This document shows positions 1 to 15,749 of a stretch of DNA of 32,834 nt, in pieces. Source of the stretch: Nitrospira sp. GTDB taxonomy: Bacteria > Nitrospirota > Nitrospiria > Nitrospirales > UBA8639. Below the pieces are notes generated by a model that saw nothing but the letters and a program-made list of their open reading frames with translations, was not told where the DNA came from and did no database searches. The position numbers were made by a program, and so were the translations under genes. The stretch lies in assembly GCA_028819435.1 (NCBI GenBank), contig JAPPLK010000050.1:1-32834 (forward strand). Direction: 5' to 3'. Within the stretch, counting starts at the first letter, position 1. Each line of letters begins with the position of its first letter.

Positions 1-13
1 GGCGAAGTCGAAG

Positions 14-38
14 GGAATTACTGAACATTTACAATTCC
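14..38. repeat. short dispersed repeat, fused-end form of the AATTGTAAATGTTCAG family
   Basis: A 25-bp unit bounded by GGAATT and AATTCC, with the core ACTGAACATTTAC. The same unit occurs in reverse complement at 8178-8202. Half-units occur at 1423-1447, 1599-1626, 15879-15909 and 16119-16152. This copy contains the stop codon of the PIN-domain gene that ends at 29. It is next to an arm reading GCGAAGTCGAAGG, as is the 8178 copy. Confidence 0.7.
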
Positions 39-472
39 TGCGAAAGCAGGAGGCGTTTACGGAACACGGACGGGGTGAGAATCGGAACGGGAAAGTCTTT
101 TGCCATGGCGAGCAGGTCTTTGTCCCCGGTCACCAAGGCGTCGGCTTGGGCCGCGAGTGCCAGTTCGAGGAATGGTCGGTCGAATCGATCGCGGCACTCC
201 GGAATCTCGGTCGAATTCGATATAATGACCGTTTCGCACCAGGGCAGATAATCAGCCAGCAGGTCTTCCCGCTCCCCGTCGGTCAGGTTGAACTTCGGAT
301 AGCTCAGGGCTCGAATCAACTCGTTCATTGTTTCACGGCTTGCCAGGGGGCAGACGCGGCGGGCTTGCCATGCCGTACGCAGCCAGGAGAGCGTGCCTGC
401 ATGAAACAGGAGTGACGAGAGCAGTACGTTGGTATCGATGACAACGCGCGGAGAGGTCACTAGGGCGGACAC
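29..472 (-). CDS. PIN-domain toxin of a type II toxin-antitoxin pair (VapC-like)
   Basis: The 147-residue product is a single PIN domain, expected to act as a metal-dependent ribonuclease toxin. Its features are the N-terminal strand VVIDTNVLLSSLL with the first catalytic Asp (D13), a middle acidic helix (TMNELIRAL) and the C-terminal block FLELALAAQADALVTGDKDLL with two more acidic residues. The length fits the COG1569-type PIN family. It lies directly downstream of the AbrB-type antitoxin gene on the same strand, 12 bp after its stop. The start is GTG at 472; GTG at 460 is an alternative. Both lie at or next to a palindromic repeat (461-487), and the stop lies inside a second repeat (14-38), so both ends of the gene have been shaped by repeats. 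Family assignment is firm; the RNA target is unknown. Confidence 0.85.
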   Translation of the reverse strand: MSALVTSPRVVIDTNVLLSSLLFHAGTLSWLRTAWQARRVCPLASRETMNELIRALSYPKFNLTDGEREDLLADYLPWCETVIISNSTEIPECRDRFDRPFLELALAAQADALVTGDKDLLAMAKDFPVPILTPSVFRKRLLLSQEL

Positions 473-487
473 GCAGGTCCGCCCCTA
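461..487. repeat. palindromic repeat (GGGCGGAC...GTCCGCCC) at the antitoxin-toxin junction
   Basis: An inverted repeat with arms GGGCGGAC and GTCCGCCC around ACGCAG. It belongs to the same design as GTAGGGACAGGC...GCCTGTCC at 10189-10214 and 12574-12601. Here it provides the antitoxin stop codon (TAG, 485-487) and overlaps the GTG start of the toxin. Confidence 0.75.
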
Positions 488-703
488 CTGACGCGCCCAG
501 GCCACTGCGTCAGCCACGTCCGTCCCGGACAGGCCCAATTCGGCCAATTTGGCGCGCACGGCGCCCGCGCGAGTGATCCGCACGGGAGTCAGCACGATGC
601 AGCCGTTTTCTCCGGTCACGTCAAAATACTCCGCGCCTTCAAAATCGGACAGGATCGATTTCGGCAGGGTCAACTGGTTTTTTGATGTCAATTTGGCGAG
701 CAC
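485..703 (-). CDS. AbrB/SpoVT-type antitoxin
   Basis: The 72-residue product has an N-terminal swapped-hairpin AbrB DNA-binding domain: LAKLTSKNQLTLPKSIL, then an acidic turn and YFDVTGENGCIVLTPV. The C-terminal tail, about residues 45-72, probably binds the toxin. It would neutralise the PIN toxin encoded immediately downstream and autoregulate the pair, as is usual for this family. The start is GTG at 703, preceded by AAAGGATT at a normal ribosome-binding distance. The stop codon is contributed by the palindromic repeat at 461-487. A degenerate piece of a second gene of this family lies at about 1274-1318. Confidence 0.85.
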   Translation of the reverse strand: MLAKLTSKNQLTLPKSILSDFEGAEYFDVTGENGCIVLTPVRITRAGAVRAKLAELGLSGTDVADAVAWARQ

Positions 704-890
704 AATAATCCTTTTTGTAAGGAAAAAAGGAATTATTGCATTATTGTATGAACCATTTCAATGCGAACGTATCACATGCACAATCCCGGGTCGCCAGGTG
801 TTGCACTTTCCTGACGTCATTGCGTTTGCCGGATACGAAAGCGTTGCGCCACCCTGAAAGGAGATCTGGAAGAAGAGGGCTCTGTGCAAG

Positions 891-914
891 CCTGGCACGC
901 AGGTCCGCCCCTGC
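891..914. repeat. degenerate half-copy of the GTCCGCCCC palindromic repeat
   Basis: GCACGCAGGTCCGCCCCTGC repeats the right half of the 461-487 element (ACGCAGGTCCGCCCCT), but its left arm has decayed. It sits just downstream of the ParD-like stop codon, where a ParE toxin gene would normally begin. Confidence 0.5.
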
Positions 915-922
915 ATTGGCGG

Positions 923-1168
923 TTAGCCGTTTTTTCGTAGGCGTTCCTGTATCGCGGTTCGGACGTCCGCCGGCGTGGGGGTGCCGGGACCGCATTTGTC
1001 GTCTTCGGCCATGGCGAGGCGGATGGCTTCGATGCCCGCGTCTCGTTGTTGTCGTTCCCGGATGAGGTCGCTGATGACTTCACTTTCGGAGCGATACTGG
1101 CCGCTGGCGACCTGGGTTTTCAGCCAGTCGTCGTGCGTATCTGTAATGGAAATGGTTCTTCTTGGCAT
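923..1168 (-). CDS. parD: ParD-like ribbon-helix-helix antitoxin, apparently orphan
   Basis: The 81-residue product has the ParD layout: a beta strand with TISITDTHDDWLKTQV, the block SGQYRSESEVISDLIRE typical of ribbon-helix-helix ParD proteins, and a charged C-terminal toxin-binding region. An upstream in-frame codon at 1192 would add eight residues. The ATG at 1168 is preferred because GGAGG lies at the right distance before it. ParD normally precedes parE in an operon, but downstream on this strand there is only about 220 bp with a decayed repeat and no ParE-like frame. It therefore looks like a solitary antitoxin or the remains of a parDE pair. Confidence 0.75.
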   Translation of the reverse strand: MPRRTISITDTHDDWLKTQVASGQYRSESEVISDLIRERQQRDAGIEAIRLAMAEDDKCGPGTPTPADVRTAIQERLRKNG

Positions 1169-1273
1169 CACTTTTCCTCCATTTATAGACAATTATGTGC
1201 ATATATAGCGTATATTTGATGTAATAATGCATCATTTTTTCATATTTTTCAACGTGTCAGGAATCTGGATGAA

Positions 1274-1318
1274 TCAGGACTGCGCGTCGTTGAAATCGGT
1301 CAGTATCGCTTTCGGCAG
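1274..1318 (-). pseudogene. fragment of an AbrB-type antitoxin gene
   Basis: The minus strand reads LPKAILTDFNDAQS then stop. This closely matches the LPKSILSDFEG segment of the intact antitoxin at 485-703, and the underlying DNA is also similar to 630-663. The preceding segment (a CAGGTCAC stretch) aligns only with a frame change, and the rest of the DNA-binding domain is missing. It is best read as the remnant of a second AbrB gene cut by repeat activity. The match is short. Confidence 0.5.
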
Positions 1319-1422
1319 TGACCTGTGGCTGCCGCATCTCATGCGGCTAGGAAGGAGGCGGGATAAGTACAGGAATGCCGCCCTGCATCGTCTCTACTTG
1401 GCGATGGATGACGCGACGTTTG

Positions 1423-1626
1423 GGAAATGTTCAGTAATTCGTTGTCCTTTTCTCACGCTGCCTTCTGTACCCCAGCAGCCTCTTTCAGTTGTAGCGGCGG
1501 CATCTTATGCCGCCCGGAGAGGGTGCCGGGACGAAGCGCCATAAGATGGCACGGCTACACCTAGGAGAGAACCCTCCTCCCCAGTCAGGCTGACCATTCT
1601 GTCAACGAATGACTGAACACATACAA
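1423..1626. repeat. composite MITE-like element, copy A
   Basis: About 204 bp bounded by inverted ends: AAATGTTCAGTAATTCGTTG on the left and GTCAACGAATGACTGAACA on the right. A second, inner inverted-repeat block at 1491-1562 starts TGTAGCGGCGGCATCTTATG and ends CATAAGATGGCACGGCTACA. The same two-layer architecture is found at 15879-16152. There is no internal reading frame of note. It occupies the first part of the gene-free region upstream of nxrA. Confidence 0.6.
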
Positions 1627-1734
1627 ATGATGGAATTTTTGCCACGGACCAGTTACCGAGAGGTAACAATGGAAGGGAATGCCAAATTTATATCCCGCAC
1701 CTTTGAACGAAGGTTTTTACGTATTTATCGTTAG

Positions 1735-1827
1735 CTTTATGTCAATAAAACAGAAATAATGTCATGAATAGCACAGAATAATTGACCTTATTTATCTTTA
1801 TGTCAAATAATATAGGTTTTTTGTCAA
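1735..1827 (+). promoter_or_regulatory. cluster of TGTCA(A) boxes, candidate upstream activator sites for nxrAB
   Basis: In a very AT-rich stretch, CTTTATGTCAATAAA (1735-1749) and CTTTATGTCAAATAA (1796-1810) are near-identical and 61 bp apart, about six helical turns. Related boxes are AATGTCATGAA (1758-1768), TTGAC (1782-1786) and TTGTCAA (1821-1827). The cluster is about 335-425 bp upstream of the predicted sigma-54 start site. That is within the range from which enhancer-binding proteins act by looping. Assignment to an activator is inference. Confidence 0.35.
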
Positions 1828-2134
1828 GCCACATAGGCTGAATGGACCATTGTGTTACTAAAACCACACGTCTGATGATCAATTTATGACTGACAGTTTA
1901 TTTGAATAAATCATAACAAATTTTTTTTATTGATATATTATTGATATATAATTGAATTTTGAAGATATCGAGATCGCTAGATCCCATGGTGTCGAAACTT
2001 TTGGCCATCAGGGGGACGGTCGTAGTCCATTCGTGCTACCGAATGGAAACGTCAGGGAAGACCAAGCATTATGTACAAAACAAATTTATTTTTATTTTCA
2101 TATAGTTATAAGTTTTATACGATATCGTTCCGAA

Positions 2135-2150
2135 TGGCCCGAAAATTGCT
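2135..2150 (+). promoter_or_regulatory. sigma-54 (RpoN) promoter of nxrAB
   Basis: TGGCCCGAAAATTGCT matches the sigma-54 consensus TGGCACG-N4-TTGCW at all but one position, with correct spacing between the GG (2136-2137) and GC (2148-2149) dinucleotides. The start of transcription would be near 2161, giving a leader of about 177 nt before the nxrA ATG. It is the best promoter match in the region. Sigma-54-dependent control of nxr genes has been proposed for Nitrospira, which supports it. Confidence 0.65.
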
Positions 2151-2159
2151 TGAATCTAC

Positions 2160-2183
2160 GTGTTATTAATGGTGTTATTAATG
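2160..2183 (+). repeat. 12-bp tandem duplication at the predicted nxrAB transcription start
   Basis: GTGTTATTAATG occurs twice in direct succession. The first copy coincides with the start site predicted from the sigma-54 promoter, so the duplication would alter the first transcribed bases. Confidence 0.6.
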
Positions 2184-2239
2184 GCAGTCAGCCTGAAGTC
2201 AAGGCAGGGGATGAGCGGAATGATGAAGCAAGGTTCAGG

Positions 2240-2284
2240 AAAGGAGGTGGTTAGTCAAAAGTTTTCCCCAACAGGGGAGTTTTT
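2240..2284 (+). promoter_or_regulatory. nxrA leader: perfect Shine-Dalgarno without start codon, then hairpin and U-run
   Basis: AAAGGAGGTG (2240-2249) is complementary to the 16S rRNA 3' end over nine bases but has no ATG at a usable distance. It is followed by a small stem, TCCCC/GGGGA around AACA (2265-2278), and then TTTTT (2280-2284). The true nxrA ribosome-binding site (GAGGAGG) lies about 85 bp further on. The arrangement could be a ribosome standby site or a weak attenuator; neither is proven. Confidence 0.35.
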
Positions 2285-2337
2285 CATTAATCCATTCCAC
2301 GTTAGGCCGATAGGCCTTTACACGAGGAGGTTTCACA

Positions 2338-5300
2338 ATGTTTCTTTCTAGACGTCAGTTTTTAAAAGTGACCACCGGGACGGTGGCGGCAGTGGCGTTG
2401 GCGGATAAAGCCTTGGCCTTGACCGCGCTGCAACCGGTTGTCGAAGTGGGCAACCCGCTGGGCGAGTATCCGGATCGCGCCTGGGAGCGGGTGTACCACG
2501 ATCAGTATCGCTATGACTCGTCGTTTACGTGGGTCTGCTCCCCGAACGACACTCACGCCTGCCGCATCCGTTCCTTCGTGCGTAACGGTGTGGTCATGCG
2601 GGTCGAGCAAAACTACGACCACCAAACTTACGAAGACCTCTACGGCAACCGCGGAACGTTTGCTCACAACCCGCGGATGTGCTTGAAGGGGTACACGATG
2701 CATCGCCGGGTGTATGGGCCCTATCGGTTGAAAGGCCCCTTGATGCGCCGTGGTTGGAAGGCCTGGATGGATGCCGGCAGCCCGGAATTCACCCCGGACG
2801 TCATGAATAAATACAAATTCACTTCGCGGTACCTGGATGACATGTTGCGGGTAAGCTGGGATACGGCCTTTACGTACCTGGCCAAAGCCATGGTCATTAT
2901 CGCGGAGCGGTACAGCGGCGAAGCCGGTGCCCGTCGGTTGCGGGAACAAGGCTATCCGCCGGAAATGATCGAGATGACCAAGGGTTCCGGCGTGCGGACC
3001 ATGAAGTTCCGCGCGGGGATGCCCATCCTGGGCGTGATCGGCAAAATGGCCGTCACCCGGATGAACGGTGGCTGCGGCGCATTGCTCGACCACTACATTC
3101 GGAAAGTGAAACCTGCCCAGGCCCAAGGCGGCCGGTACTGGTCGAACTACACTTGGCACGGTGACCAAAACCCAGCGCATCCGTTCTGGTCCGGGGTACA
3201 AACCTCTGACATCGACATGAGCGACATGCGGTTCGCGAAGTTGAACACAAGCTGGGGCAAAAACTTCGTCGAAAACAAAATGCCGGAAGCGCACTGGAAG
3301 CTCGAAAGCATCGAGCGCGGCGCGCGGGTGGTCGTGATCACGCCGGAGTACAACCCGACGGCGTATCGTGCCGACTACTGGATTCCGGTTCGGCCGGAAA
3401 CGGACGCGGCGTTGTTCCTGGGTGCCTGTAAGATCATGTTCGACGAGAACATGCACGACCATGATTTCTGCGCGGCCTACACGGACATGCCGATTCTGGT
3501 TCGGACGGATACCCTGCAATACCTGGATCCGCGCGACGTGATCAAGGGCTATAAATTGCCGGACTTCTCCAAGACCTATTCAGGGAAAGTGCAAACCCTG
3601 AACCCGGCGAAAATTGCCCGTCTCGGCGGTTTCATGGTGTGGGACGTCAATAAAGGCCAAGCCGTGCCGATTCACCGTGAATTGGTGGGCTGGCACTATC
3701 GGAACAGCGGTATCGAGGCAGCGTTGAACGGGACCTTCCGGGTGAAGTTGCTGAACGGCCGGGAAGTCGACGTGGCACCGATCTTCCAGTTGTATCAAGT
3801 CCACTTGCAGGACTACGACCTGGATACGGTCCACCAGATCAACCGGTCCCCGAAGGACCTGATCGTCCGCTGGGCCAGAGATTCAGGTACCATTAAACCG
3901 GCAACGATTCACAACGGGGAAGGCACGAACCACTACTTCCACCAAACCATCATTGCGCGTGGCGCGGCGATGGTGTTGATCATCGCCGGGAACGTCGGGA
4001 AGTTCGGGACCGGGCAACATACCTGGGCCGGGAACTACAAAGCGGGGATCTGGAACGCCACCCCGTGGTCCGGCGGTGGTTTGGGCACGCACACCGCGGA
4101 GAATCCGTTCAAGATCACGACGGATCCGAACGCACACGGTAAAGAAGTGCACGTGCGTGGCTACTACTATGGTGAAGAGGTGGCCTACTGGAACCATGGG
4201 GACACGGCGTTGATCGTGAACACGCCGAAGTATGGGCGCCGGGTGTTTACCGGAAAAACGCACATGCCGACCCCGACCAAGTTCCGGTGGGTGGCGAACG
4301 TCAACGTGTTGAACAACGCCAAACACCACTATGACATGGTTAAGAACGTGGACCCGCACATCGAATGTATCGTCACCCAGGATATTGAGATGACCTCGGA
4401 CGTGAACCACGCGGACGTGGCCATGGGTGTGAATACGTGGATGGAGTTCACGTATCCGGAACATACCGCGACGGTGTCGAATCCGTGGTTCCAGGTGTGG
4501 AAAGGGGGCATCCGGCCCTTGTATGACACCAGAAACGACCTGGATACGACCGCCGGCGTGGCCGCCAAATTGACCAACATGACGGGCGATGGGCGGTTCC
4601 GGGATTACTTCAAGTTCGTCTATGACAACCGGGTGGACGTGTACGTGCAACGGTTGTTGGACGCCAGTTGTACGGGGTACGGGTACAGCGTTGACACCAT
4701 GCTCAAGTCCGAAAAGGGCTGGATGGTGCTGTGCCGGACGTATCCACGGCAACCGTTCTGGGAAGAGACGAACGAATCGAAGCCGCAATGGACGCGGACT
4801 GGCCGGTATGAAAACTACCGGACGGAGCCGGAAGCCATTGAGTACGGTGAAAACTTCATTTCGCACCGGGAAGGGACGGAAGCCACTCCATACCTGCCGA
4901 ACGCGATTATGACGACGAACCCGTACGTACGGCCGGATGACTACGGTATTCCTATCACGGCGCAGCACCATGACGACAAGACGGTGCGGAACATTGCGTT
5001 GCCGTGGCAGGAAATCAAACGGTACTCCAACCCGCTGTGGGAGAAGGGGTATCAATTCTACTGCGTGACGCCGAAGACGCGGCATCGTGTACACAGCCAA
5101 TGGTCAGTGAACGACTGGGTGCAGATGTATGAATCGAACTTCGGTGACGCGTATCGGATGGATAAACGGACACCGGGCGTGGGTGAGCATCAACTTCACA
5201 TGAACCCACAATCGGCGAAAGACCGGGGCATCAACGACGGTGACTACGTGTACGTTGACGGCAATCCGGTTGATCGGCCGTACCGCGGATGGAAGCCGAG

Positions 5301-5775
5301 TGACCCGTACTACAAAGTGGCTCGGTTGATGATTCGTGCGAAGTACAACCCGGCGTTCCCGTACCACGTGACGATGGCAAAACACGCTCCGTACGTGGCA
5401 ACCGCGAAATCCGTGAAGGGTCACGAAACCCGACCGGACGGACGGGCCATCGCGATGGATACGGGTTATCAATCCAACTTCCGGTATGGGGCGCAACAGT
5501 CCTTCACCCGTGACTGGTTGATGCCGATGCACCAAACCGACTCACTGCCGGGCAAACACGCAGTGGGCTGGAAGTTCAAATTCGGTTATCAAGTGGACAA
5601 CCACGCGGTCAACACCACTCCGAAAGAATGTCTGATGCGGATCACCAAAGCAGAGGACGGTGGTATCGGCGGCAGGGGTCCATGGGAGCCAGTCCGGACC
5701 GGGTTTACGCCTGGGCAGGAAAATGAGTTCATGATCAAGTGGCTCAAAGGCGACCACATTAAGATCAAGGTGTAA
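2338..5775 (+). CDS. nxrA: nitrite oxidoreductase alpha subunit (molybdenum catalytic subunit)
   Basis: This is the catalytic subunit that oxidises nitrite to nitrate at a molybdenum bis-guanine-dinucleotide centre; it belongs to the type II DMSO reductase family. The 1145 residues are the usual length of Nitrospira NxrA. The N-terminus carries a twin-arginine motif (S4-R-R-Q-F-L-K) and a hydrophobic stretch to about residue 30, so the folded enzyme would be exported to the periplasm. The FS0 [4Fe-4S] ligands appear to be C67-x3-D71-x3-C75-x39-C115, with Asp at the position usually held by His or Cys. D276, in TWHGDQNPAHP, aligns from memory with the molybdenum-ligating Asp of NarG. The ATG follows GAGGAGG at an ideal distance. 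nxrB follows after 65 bp, so the two are co-transcribed from the sigma-54 promoter. No other nxr subunit gene is in the window. Confidence 0.97.
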   Translation: MFLSRRQFLKVTTGTVAAVALADKALALTALQPVVEVGNPLGEYPDRAWERVYHDQYRYDSSFTWVCSPNDTHACRIRSFVRNGVVMRVEQNYDHQTYEDLYGNRGTFAHNPRMCLKGYTMHRRVYGPYRLKGPLMRRGWKAWMDAGSPEFTPDVMNKYKFTSRYLDDMLRVSWDTAFTYLAKAMVIIAERYSGEAGARRLREQGYPPEMIEMTKGSGVRTMKFRAGMPILGVIGKMAVTRMNGGCGALLDHYIRKVKPAQAQGGRYWSNYTWHGDQNPAHPFWSGVQTSDIDMSDMRFAKLNTSWGKNFVENKMPEAHWKLESIERGARVVVITPEYNPTAYRADYWIPVRPETDAALFLGACKIMFDENMHDHDFCAAYTDMPILVRTDTLQYLDPRDVIKGYKLPDFSKTYSGKVQTLNPAKIARLGGFMVWDVNKGQAVPIHRELVGWHYRNSGIEAALNGTFRVKLLNGREVDVAPIFQLYQVHLQDYDLDTVHQINRSPKDLIVRWARDSGTIKPATIHNGEGTNHYFHQTIIARGAAMVLIIAGNVGKFGTGQHTWAGNYKAGIWNATPWSGGGLGTHTAENPFKITTDPNAHGKEVHVRGYYYGEEVAYWNHGDTALIVNTPKYGRRVFTGKTHMPTPTKFRWVANVNVLNNAKHHYDMVKNVDPHIECIVTQDIEMTSDVNHADVAMGVNTWMEFTYPEHTATVSNPWFQVWKGGIRPLYDTRNDLDTTAGVAAKLTNMTGDGRFRDYFKFVYDNRVDVYVQRLLDASCTGYGYSVDTMLKSEKGWMVLCRTYPRQPFWEETNESKPQWTRTGRYENYRTEPEAIEYGENFISHREGTEATPYLPNAIMTTNPYVRPDDYGIPITAQHHDDKTVRNIALPWQEIKRYSNPLWEKGYQFYCVTPKTRHRVHSQWSVNDWVQMYESNFGDAYRMDKRTPGVGEHQLHMNPQSAKDRGINDGDYVYVDGNPVDRPYRGWKPSDPYYKVARLMIRAKYNPAFPYHVTMAKHAPYVATAKSVKGHETRPDGRAIAMDTGYQSNFRYGAQQSFTRDWLMPMHQTDSLPGKHAVGWKFKFGYQVDNHAVNTTPKECLMRITKAEDGGIGGRGPWEPVRTGFTPGQENEFMIKWLKGDHIKIKV

Positions 5776-5840
5776 CATCAGGATCGAATGTGGATTTTTA
5801 GCAATTGAACTAACTATGGTTCAAAGAAACGGAGGAAACC

Positions 5841-7130
5841 ATGCCAGAAGTCTATAATTGGCAATTAGGGCGGAAGATGCTGTATCCCTACGAGGAACGG
5901 CATCCAAAGTGGCAATTCGCCTTTGTGTTCAACATCAATCGCTGCTTGGCCTGTCAGACCTGTTCCATGGCGGATAAATCCACCTGGTTGTTCTCGAAGG
6001 GCCAGGAGTACATGTGGTGGAACAACGTGGAAACGAAGCCGTATGGCGGATATCCACAGTTCTATGACGTGAAAATCACGCAGTTGATTGAACAAGTGAA
6101 CCCAGGCGGCCAGGTGTGGAACGTGCGGGTCGGCCGCAAACACCATGCGCCGTATGGGGTGTTCGAAGGAATGACCATTTTCGATGCCGGGGCCAAAGTC
6201 GGCCAGGCCGCGATCGGGTACATTCCGACGGACCAGGAATGGCGTTTTGTTAACATTTATGAAGACACGGCCACGTCAATGCGCGCCATCGTGGAAGGCA
6301 TTGATAAGACCGGGTTTACCAAGGAAGAACCATGGCGGATGACCGGCAGCAGCTTGCCGGAACATGAAACCTACTTCTTCTATCTTCAACGCATTTGTAA
6401 CCATTGCACCTACCCGGGTTGTTTGGCTGCGTGCCCGCGGAAGGCCATCTATAAGAGGCCGGAAGACGGGATCGTGCTGATCGACCAGAACCGGTGCCGT
6501 GGGTACAAGAAGTGCGTGGAGCAATGTCCATTCAAAAAGCCCATGTATCGGGGTACGACTCGGGTCACCGAGAAGTGCATCGCGTGCTATCCGCGGGTCG
6601 AGGGGAAAGATCCTCTGACCGGCGGCGAGCCGATGGAAACCCGGTGTATGGCGGCCTGCGTGGGTAAGATTCGCTTACAGAACCTCGTCAAGATCGGTGA
6701 GGACGGACTGTGGGCGGAAGATCGGTGGAACCCCCTGTACTACACCATCCGGGTGGAACAGGTGGCGTTGCCGCTGTACCCGCAATGGGGCACCGAGCCG
6801 AACGGGTTTTACATTCCCCCGCGGCAATCGCCCCGTGGCTACATCCGGCAAATGTTCGGGCCGGGCGTGGACAATGCGATTGAGAAGTACTTGGTGCCGA
6901 GCCGGGAACTGTTAGCCGTCCTCCAGCTCTGGAGAGCGAGCCAACAGATCGTCTTCCGGTATGACATCATTCCTGGACCGAAAGTGTTCGAAACCCAAAT
7001 TCACGGGCGGAAGTTCGAGATGTACAACGACACCGTCCTTGGGTTCAACAAGTCCGGGAAGGAAGCCGTGCGGCAGCAAGTGGAAGAGCCGATTTACATT
7101 CGGCCAGCCGAACGCGCTACCTGGCTGTAA
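5841..7130 (+). CDS. nxrB: nitrite oxidoreductase beta subunit (iron-sulfur electron transfer subunit)
   Basis: This subunit passes electrons from NxrA towards the membrane partner through three [4Fe-4S] clusters and one [3Fe-4S] or [4Fe-4S] cluster. The 429 residues match Nitrospira NxrB. Four cysteine groups are visible: RCLACQTC (C35, C38, C41), CNHCTYPGCLAACPRKAIYK, NRCRGYKKCVEQCPFKKP, and EKCIACYPRV continuing to ETRCMAACVGK. The ferredoxin-type segments pair across the chain as in NarH, DdhB and EbdB. There is no signal peptide of its own. By analogy with relatives it is exported as a complex with NxrA through the Tat system. The start is supported by GGAGGAAACC before the ATG. A strong terminator follows the stop. 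Confidence 0.97.
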   Translation: MPEVYNWQLGRKMLYPYEERHPKWQFAFVFNINRCLACQTCSMADKSTWLFSKGQEYMWWNNVETKPYGGYPQFYDVKITQLIEQVNPGGQVWNVRVGRKHHAPYGVFEGMTIFDAGAKVGQAAIGYIPTDQEWRFVNIYEDTATSMRAIVEGIDKTGFTKEEPWRMTGSSLPEHETYFFYLQRICNHCTYPGCLAACPRKAIYKRPEDGIVLIDQNRCRGYKKCVEQCPFKKPMYRGTTRVTEKCIACYPRVEGKDPLTGGEPMETRCMAACVGKIRLQNLVKIGEDGLWAEDRWNPLYYTIRVEQVALPLYPQWGTEPNGFYIPPRQSPRGYIRQMFGPGVDNAIEKYLVPSRELLAVLQLWRASQQIVFRYDIIPGPKVFETQIHGRKFEMYNDTVLGFNKSGKEAVRQQVEEPIYIRPAERATWL

Positions 7131-7146
7131 GAGCCTGGTAGGGTAC

Positions 7147-7186
7147 GAAAAAAGCCGGAGGTTTTCGGACCTCCGGCTTTTTTTTT
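7147..7186 (+). terminator. intrinsic terminator of the nxrAB operon
   Basis: A perfect 10-bp GC-rich stem, AGCCGGAGGT (7153-7162) and ACCTCCGGCT (7169-7178), closes a six-base loop and is followed by a run of nine T. It lies 16 bp after the nxrB stop codon. The A-run on its left side could allow some termination in the other direction. Confidence 0.93.
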
Positions 7187-7239
7187 GAACACCCGTGCGT
7201 GGGAAAGCCATCAAAAAATTGCTTAGATTCCTGTTCTAA

Positions 7240-7734
7240 ATGGTGTATCCTAAAGAGATATTTGCGCTGTTATCCAAAAACCGCAAGGCGCGATACCGAA
7301 ATATGGAAAAAACCGGCATAGAGCACATAACAACCGTAGGGGGTGCCCCCGATCCTGCCCTGCCTGTCCTGAGCGAAGTCGAAGGAAGCTTGTCGAAGGG
7401 TGCCGTCCCTCCTTCTCCTCCCGATCCCGTTCCTGTTTCAGCTCAGACCATTCCCTTTTGGGAGCTCCTGGAGACCGGGAAAGTGCCTGACCAATATCTC
7501 AAGACGGAATACGTGACTCAACAATTTGTCGAACGGTTGGTACATTACGTCTTGAGCATTCCCTCGAAATCCATTTCCATCCCCCAGCTTTCGGCCATTC
7601 TTGAACAAATTGACGCCCGTCAACAGATATTCTTTTTTAAGCGCTTAAAGGAAACGAGTCCCCACAGTTTAAAGGAGTTTGCTCCGCTGTATTACGGCTT
7701 TATGGCGGAATTTTATCCGTTATTGTTTACCTGA
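7240..7734 (+). CDS. hypothetical protein with an in-frame repeat-derived segment
   Basis: The 164-residue product is not recognised. The C-terminal part, from about residue 70 (FWELLETGKVPDQYLKTEYV) to the end, looks like a compact helical domain with many aromatic and hydrophobic residues. The N-terminal third is low-complexity and includes LPVLSEVEGSLSKG (about residues 40-54). That peptide is the literal translation of a dispersed DNA repeat of the CCTGAGCGAAGTCGAAGG type, not a protein domain. No convincing ribosome-binding site precedes the ATG at 7240 or the in-frame ATG at 7303, so the start is uncertain. The gene follows the nxrAB terminator and precedes another unknown gene by 46 bp. 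It may be an nxr-linked accessory protein, but nothing in the sequence proves it. Confidence 0.55.
   Translation: MVYPKEIFALLSKNRKARYRNMEKTGIEHITTVGGAPDPALPVLSEVEGSLSKGAVPPSPPDPVPVSAQTIPFWELLETGKVPDQYLKTEYVTQQFVERLVHYVLSIPSKSISIPQLSAILEQIDARQQIFFFKRLKETSPHSLKEFAPLYYGFMAEFYPLLFT
7362..7401. repeat. dispersed CCTGAGCGAAGTCGAAGG repeat inside a coding region
   Basis: GTCCTGAGCGAAGTCGAAGG is followed by AAGCTTGTCGAAGGG. Related arms occur at 1-15, 8203-8240 and 10003-10135. This is the only copy here that is translated, in frame, within the hypothetical gene at 7240-7734. Confidence 0.75.
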
Positions 7735-7780
7735 CCCTTGGTCCGGAGACCCCTGTGTTAGGAAGAACGTAGGAGGAACA

Positions 7781-8149
7781 ATGAACTCAACTTTACATAG
7801 AGCGATTTCAAGCTTTTACAACTTGATTTATGAAGCACAGGCGTTTTCCACGACCATGGCCCGAATCGATTCGGCTGACCATGACCGGTATTTGGGGCGA
7901 GTGGAAGGGCTCAATTGGGTCCTGGACCGGTGTCAGGAGTTTGAAGACGTGGACCAGAATCTCACCACGCCATCCCTTCACAAACTGCTGGGTGACGTCA
8001 AATCCGATCTTGACCATGAATTATCCGTCCAGCGTCGCGAAAAAGGCAGAAGGGCTGACGGCCGGGAAGAAGCACTCATCTTCGTGACCGATTACCTCAC
8101 GAGTTTGATCACGGCCACGGAAATCGAGTCAGCCAAAAGTCCGGTCTGA
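7781..8149 (+). CDS. hypothetical helical protein
   Basis: The 122-residue soluble product is not recognised. It is predicted to be almost entirely helical and charged, starting STLHRAISSFYNLIYEAQAF and ending in a conserved-looking hydrophobic helix (ALIFVTDYLTSLITATEI). No signal peptide, metal motif or repeat was seen. The start at 7781 is well supported by AGGAGGAACA before the ATG; the longer open frame from 7679 lacks such a site. The gene lies 46 bp after the preceding hypothetical gene and is probably co-transcribed with it. Position downstream of nxrAB suggests, but does not show, a related role. Confidence 0.7.
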   Translation: MNSTLHRAISSFYNLIYEAQAFSTTMARIDSADHDRYLGRVEGLNWVLDRCQEFEDVDQNLTTPSLHKLLGDVKSDLDHELSVQRREKGRRADGREEALIFVTDYLTSLITATEIESAKSPV

Positions 8150-15239: not shown

Positions 15240-15749
15240 ATGGATACATGGAAAACATATGGTATCGGAGTTGCTTTGCTCATCATTGTATCTTACGGTG
15301 GTTTCCAATTGGTATCGTCCAGTGTCGCAAATCTAAATGAGAAGGTAAATGCAGTATATACGGACTTGGGCAGGACTCAAGAGAGATTTGAAGAGTTGGA
15401 CAAGAAAGCTAAAGAGTTGGACAAGAAAGCTAATACGTTGGAAGAAAAATCGCAATCAATATCTACATCTCTGGAAAAAGTAAAGCAGGAACCGTCTGTG
15501 AAAGTGGGAGAGCTTCTAGGTGATCTTGAGAACTACCCTCAAGCAAAAAATTTAATTGAAAAAGTTGGGCAATTATCGAAAAACGTAAAAAGCCTTGATT
15601 CCAAAAAACTCATTTGCAATGCAAAACCCCGTGAAGACCATAAAGGATATGCATCGTGTGACGCAGATTACTATGAACTTGCAAAGTGGTGCTCTGGAGA
15701 CTGTAATGCAGATGATGCAAAAGTAACCTTATGTTGCAAGTATAAATAG
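15240..15749 (+). CDS. membrane-anchored coiled-coil protein with Cys-rich C-terminus
   Basis: The 169-residue product is not recognised. It has one N-terminal membrane helix (about residues 5-25, YGIGVALLIIVSYGGFQLVS) and a long coiled coil (about residues 28-85). The coiled coil contains a tandem duplication of ELDKKAK encoded by a 21-bp DNA repeat (15393-15434). A C-terminal domain follows with seven cysteines (LICNAK, YASCDADYY, KWCSGDCNADD, TLCCKY) that could form disulfides outside the membrane. AGGAG precedes the ATG at 15240 by eight bases, favouring it over 15234. The gene is clearly AT-richer than nxr or gcv, suggesting transfer. It is isolated between repeats. Confidence 0.75.
   Translation: MDTWKTYGIGVALLIIVSYGGFQLVSSSVANLNEKVNAVYTDLGRTQERFEELDKKAKELDKKANTLEEKSQSISTSLEKVKQEPSVKVGELLGDLENYPQAKNLIEKVGQLSKNVKSLDSKKLICNAKPREDHKGYASCDADYYELAKWCSGDCNADDAKVTLCCKYK

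Follow-up and report, generated by a model that had tools for sequence, protein, structure and literature searches.

The nitrite oxidoreductase locus

Are the genes of nitrite oxidoreductase (NXR) in this bacterium transcribed from a sigma-54 (RpoN) promoter, as an earlier note on the same DNA had proposed, and if so, which activator would open it? The window, that is the whole stretch of 32,834 nucleotides analysed here, corresponds to contig C44 of a Nitrospirales genome of 114 contigs that belongs to a marine nitrite-oxidising bacterium. The genes had been named correctly: the first encodes a molybdopterin oxidoreductase with a Tat signal and the second a 4Fe-4S protein, and they are preceded by an intergenic stretch several hundred bases long.

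2338–5775, plus strand: nxrA, nitrite oxidoreductase alpha subunit (NxrA, 1145-aa Tat-signal molybdopterin oxidoreductase)
5841–7130, plus strand: nxrB, nitrite oxidoreductase beta subunit (NxrB, 4Fe-4S protein)
2324–2331, plus strand: nxrA ribosome-binding site GAGGAGGT, from sequence and conservation

NxrA of the window is 97–100% identical to records of Nitrospira sp. bin75, SB0677_bin_15 and uncultured Nitrospirales. The genome search revealed one nxrA copy in the genome of the window, and 12 further members of the genus, two of them single-contig assemblies, likewise carry a single copy each. In the search across the genus no nxrA was found in the assembly of member G003. This assembly is 98% complete and contains rpoN, the candidate cysteine-linker regulator described below and nxrC-like genes, which points to either an assembly gap or a loss of the gene.

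A sigma-54 element upstream of nxrA

The following elements were assigned to the promoter region.

2135–2150, plus strand: -24/-12 sigma-54 promoter element TGGCCCGAAAATTGCT, from sequence match and conservation
about 2161, plus strand: predicted transcription start (+1), from GC at -13/-12 (2148–2149), giving a 177-nt leader

The spacing of the element is exact, as had been claimed, with GG at 2136–2137 and GC at 2148–2149 separated by 10 bases (GG-N10-GC), and a single mismatch distinguishes it from TGGCACGNNNNTTGCW; the distance of 188 bp from 2150 to the nxrA ATG at 2338 agrees with the earlier figure. It is the sole match in the window to TGGCACGNNNNTTGCW with fewer than two mismatches and, with an approximate weight matrix from the literature, the top-scoring sigma-54 site on both strands of the window. 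A single one of 3000 dinucleotide-shuffled versions of the 400-bp region upstream reached this score (p ~0.0003). In the whole genome there are 11 occurrences of the looser pattern TGGCNNGNNNNTTGCT, compared with 10 of its reversed control. Since this pattern is not enriched, the motif alone proves little, and it is conservation together with position that carries the case and provides the real test.

The earlier note had named missing conservation upstream of orthologous nxrA genes as grounds for giving up the promoter. The comparison turned out in its favor, as the -24/-12 element has been retained by every one of the 13 genus members that possess nxrA; it takes the form TGGC-N-CGAAAATTGCT in 10 of them and is at its weakest as TGGCCTTGAATTTGCT. 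Similar sites of the TGG-N9-TTGC type occur in most of 75 nxrA upstream regions from Nitrospirales. The best sigma-54 site has a shuffle p-value below 0.05 in 52 of the 75, a count that is descriptive because the genomes are related and hence not independent. Among these 75 upstream regions several Nitrospira paralogues (L034, L035, L056, L080 and L092) show no clear -24/-12 element, so the promoter type is not universal. At five nxrA copies (L035, L038, L072, L073 and L094), which come from N. moscoviensis, N. defluvii and relatives, the best sigma-54-like sites end in TTGTA, not TTGCA.

The lack of enrichment of the looser pattern over its reversed control is what one would see if the element were a chance match; the leading score in the window, the shuffle result and the conservation at a similar place in both genus and family make such a coincidence very improbable.

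Architecture of the upstream region

Upstream of the -24/-12 element the following features were recognized.

2035–2050, plus strand: putative upstream activator site (UAS), imperfect dyad GCTACCGAATGGAAAC (GNTNCC-N4-GGNANC), centred at about -118 from the predicted +1
2096–2108, plus strand: IHF-like site TTTCATATAGTTA, between the UAS and the -24 box, two mismatches to WATCAANNNNTTR
2027–2046, plus strand: perfect inverted repeat CCATTCG-TGCTAC-CGAATGG, which in the window's own clade overlaps the UAS

Among eight divergent genus members, column identity across the upstream DNA is 0.55 on average. When non-overlapping 16-bp blocks upstream of the predicted start are ranked in the same eight, the best are 2035–2050, 2135–2150 and 2093–2108, from the first rank to the third, so that the dyad represents the most conserved block of all. 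Promoters that depend on enhancers have a textbook layout of dyad, IHF site and -24/-12 element, in which the IHF site is common and not obligatory. The conserved blocks upstream of nxrA, the middle one being IHF-like, stand in this order.

In the 13 genus members the -24 box is preceded by the dyad at a distance of 100–103 bp, and at 96–99 bp in five more distant relatives (L027, L029, L030, L074 and L090), where the dyad reads GTTACC-N4-GGAANC or differs from this form by one mismatch. Centred at about -118, the dyad falls within the range of about 80–150 bp upstream of the start for the activator site of a sigma-54 promoter, consistent with a role as a UAS. With 0–2 mismatches allowed, the UAS pattern of the genus is found at nxrA in 13 of 13 nxrA-bearing genomes and has a few additional matches elsewhere; one of these in the window, at 15301–15317, lies within an ORF with two mismatches and was dismissed as chance. 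The perfect inverted repeat occurs once in the genome, even when three mismatches are allowed, and is kept in the closest relatives only.

Taken alone, the window's copy of the IHF-like site, with its two mismatches, is not significant (p = 0.77). Across relatives, many of which carry a copy with 0–1 mismatches, a site with at most one mismatch is present at 32 of 63 loci versus 6.5 expected, in most cases 37–52 bp upstream of the -24 box; for most members of the genus and family this distance is 37–40 bp. The genome encodes IHF-alpha, detected above the curated cut-off, and an IHF-beta-like protein, which matches IHF-beta best and falls just short of the cut-off.

The possibility that nxrAB is transcribed mainly from a sigma-70-type promoter farther upstream, the -24/-12 element being secondary or condition-specific, would suit an enzyme that is expected to be needed constantly, and two sigma-70-like sites do occur on the plus strand (1782–1811 and 1913–1941). 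However, the number of such sites is about the shuffle mean (3 found compared with 2.6 expected on both strands), and the two on the plus strand are situated farther upstream than the conserved blocks, all three of which fit a sigma-54 promoter. We consider this explanation unlikely.

Conservation of the element, the dyad and IHF-like site at near-fixed spacing, and the presence of rpoN in every one of 14 genomes thus lend good support to the earlier proposal that a sigma-54 promoter drives nxrAB, and the segment 2135–2150 is very probably its genuine core. Because this conserved promoter is accompanied by a putative UAS and a putative site of DNA bending, transcription of nxr probably needs an ATP-driven activator. 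In the mechanism that we propose, RpoN-RNA polymerase would be held at -24/-12, a dimeric enhancer-binding activator would sit on the dyad centred near -118, and IHF near -59 would bend the DNA so that the activator contacts the polymerase; ATP hydrolysis would then open the promoter, and the nxrAB transcript would begin near 2161.

Candidate activators of nxrAB

No sigma-54 activator domain is encoded on the contig of the window, and eight full sigma-54 activators are encoded in its genome. Relatives with reduced sets narrow the choice. Genomes G002 and G007 have two full activators each, which are orthologues of the same two, and G013 has four; the only families common to the three are a response regulator with a cysteine-containing linker and an NtrX-like regulator. 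We regard the former, with modest confidence, as the likeliest activator of nxrAB.

G000:C45:26565–28007 (L238:4066–5508): cysteine-linker response regulator, candidate nxrAB activator
L238:1169–4066: dCache/HAMP/PAS histidine kinase, 965 aa, directly before the cysteine-linker regulator

The cysteine-linker regulator consists of a receiver, an AAA+ sigma-54 domain and a Fis-type HTH, in agreement with an NtrC-type activator. A linker of the form C-x4-C-x10-C-x2-C joins the AAA+ lid to the Fis-type HTH, and its cysteines are invariant, N. moscoviensis included. The four-cysteine linker recalls the cysteine motif of rhizobial NifA and might be involved in redox or metal sensing. On the contig of the regulator, mobA and genes for cytochrome c and EB_dh (nxrC-like) proteins lie on its upstream side; genes for a ferredoxin-like protein and a TorD/NarJ-like chaperone lie on its downstream side, as does the start of an nxrC gene. 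The same gene set is syntenic in N. moscoviensis (L247) at 50–77% identity, with 65% for the activator, 50% for the kinase, 66% for the chaperone and 75% for nxrC. The four-cysteine-linker regulator would be phosphorylated by the adjacent histidine kinase; given the nxrC-like, TorD-like chaperone, ferredoxin, mobA and cytochrome genes that surround its locus, this one two-component pair could adjust the production of NXR to a redox or electron-donor signal. A search of the nxrC cluster for a dyad accompanied by a good -24/-12 site yielded nothing convincing, so this search lends no support to a regulon common to nxrAB and the nxrC cluster.

The main weakness of the activator assignment is the completeness of the reduced genomes G002 and G007: both are about 90% complete, and a further activator could therefore be missing from both assemblies. 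It is possible, at a lower level of confidence, that the same sigma-54 promoter is served either by such a missing protein or by the NtrX-like response regulator (L097 type), which is the other activator retained in G002, G007 and G013 and which at locus L239 adjoins a histidine-kinase-like gene. The cluster of nxrC and the chaperone, however, houses the cysteine-linker regulator and not the NtrX-like one, and the NtrX-like loci L239, L243 and L244 match none of the query proteins from the NXR cluster except in kinase and regulator domains. The cysteine-linker regulator remains our preferred candidate.

Neither of the two regulators is orthologous to the NifA-like or receiver-type regulators that N. 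moscoviensis and N. defluvii carry beside nxrAB. In N. moscoviensis the orthologue of the cysteine-linker regulator is a distinct gene within the nxrC cluster; neither NITMOv2_4531 nor the regulators next to nxrAB are among the best matches of the cysteine-linker regulator.

Relation to known sigma-54 systems

Sigma-54 promoters with a UAS and IHF include those of nifH, glnAp2 and similar genes. The nxrA promoter resembles nifH and glnAp2 in its GG-N10-GC core, in a dyad about 100 bp upstream and in an IHF-like site between the two, and differs from them in that it would drive the central respiratory enzyme of a lithotroph. The dyad GNTNCC-N4-GGNANC presumably also differs from the NifA and NtrC consensus sequences.

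The earlier note had called such control unusual for a housekeeping respiratory enzyme, which is only partly right: PMC6606698 and PMC7522533, with reference to Lucker 2010 and Koch 2015, report sigma-54-dependent regulators beside nxrAB for Nitrospira, and another lithotrophic Mo enzyme, the arsenite oxidase aioBA, depends on RpoN (PMC7533571). According to PMC6606698 and PMC7522533, nxrAB copies are differently regulated. The aioBA/AioSR system shares with nxr a lithotrophic Mo oxidase, an RpoN site and a two-component sigma-54 activator, predicted in our case; the regulatory genes of aioBA are adjacent and arsenite-responsive (PMC7533571), whereas the candidate pair for nxr is unlinked to nxrAB. 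NifA-like NITMOv2_4531 and its relatives have likewise been proposed as sigma-54-dependent regulators of nxrAB (PMC6606698), but our candidate is of a different family, is not orthologous to them and is encoded in the nxrC cluster.

Sigma-54 control of nxr has thus been suggested earlier from nearby regulator genes, and the nxrA promoter fits and sharpens these suggestions for the Nitrospira group; the additions made here are the anatomy of the promoter, a candidate activator and a leader element. In the literature searched, no paper was found that combines Nitrospira, enhancer-binding and nitrite oxidoreductase. With a defined promoter, a dyad that can be footprinted and a named kinase-regulator pair, the question of nxr switching becomes accessible to direct experiments.

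Elements of the nxrAB leader

Further elements were noted within the predicted leader.

2240–2251, plus strand: leader element AAAGGAGGTGGT, STAB-SD-like, an extended match to the anti-Shine-Dalgarno sequence, remote from the start codon
2263–2279, plus strand: hairpin CCCC-AACA-GGGG, then a T run, terminator-like in the window's genome
2160–2183, plus strand: 12-bp direct duplication (two copies of GTGTTATTAATG) at the predicted start, from the alignment of 13 genus members

The leader element AAAGGAGGTGGT, which matches the sequence complementary to the canonical 16S 3' tail, shows a conservation of 0.91, about equal to that of the true nxrA ribosome-binding site. In the genus and family its position is about -85 to -115; four N. 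moscoviensis copies have it at -65 to -82. The 16S 3' tail pattern GGNTCACCTCCTTT was not found in the assembly, which may lack that end of the 16S gene. A function of AAAGGAGGTGGT as ribosome-binding site of a leader peptide was rejected, a start codon following it in only 3 of 27 loci.

As a conserved, extended anti-SD match away from the start codon, the element is reminiscent of a STAB-SD and should be taken as a lead only. The STAB-SD of cry3A binds 30S subunits without initiating and protects the mRNA (PMC4113751). Both leaders contain a strong SD-like sequence far from the start codon that does not serve this codon; AAAGGAGGTGGT lies inside the predicted leader, at about nt 80, whereas the Bacillus cry3A STAB-SD is at a mapped 5' end (PMC4113751). 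This conserved element provides a testable explanation for abundant or long-lived nxr mRNA. Tentatively, NXR may be subject to two conserved layers of control that are undescribed in the literature examined, namely the cysteine-linker two-component sigma-54 activator of the nxrC cluster and a ribosome-binding, non-initiating STAB-SD-like leader that would stabilise nxrAB mRNA outside the Gram-positives.

No Rfam match was obtained within positions 1–8000 of the window, and the fold of the leader is not unusual (z = -1.75). The terminator-like hairpin (2263–2288) is kept in most of the genus and its T run is not; L013 has the hairpin without a T run, and a role as a general terminator is doubtful. 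At the predicted start, the duplication of GTGTTATTAATG is present only in the genome of the window among the 13 aligned genus members.
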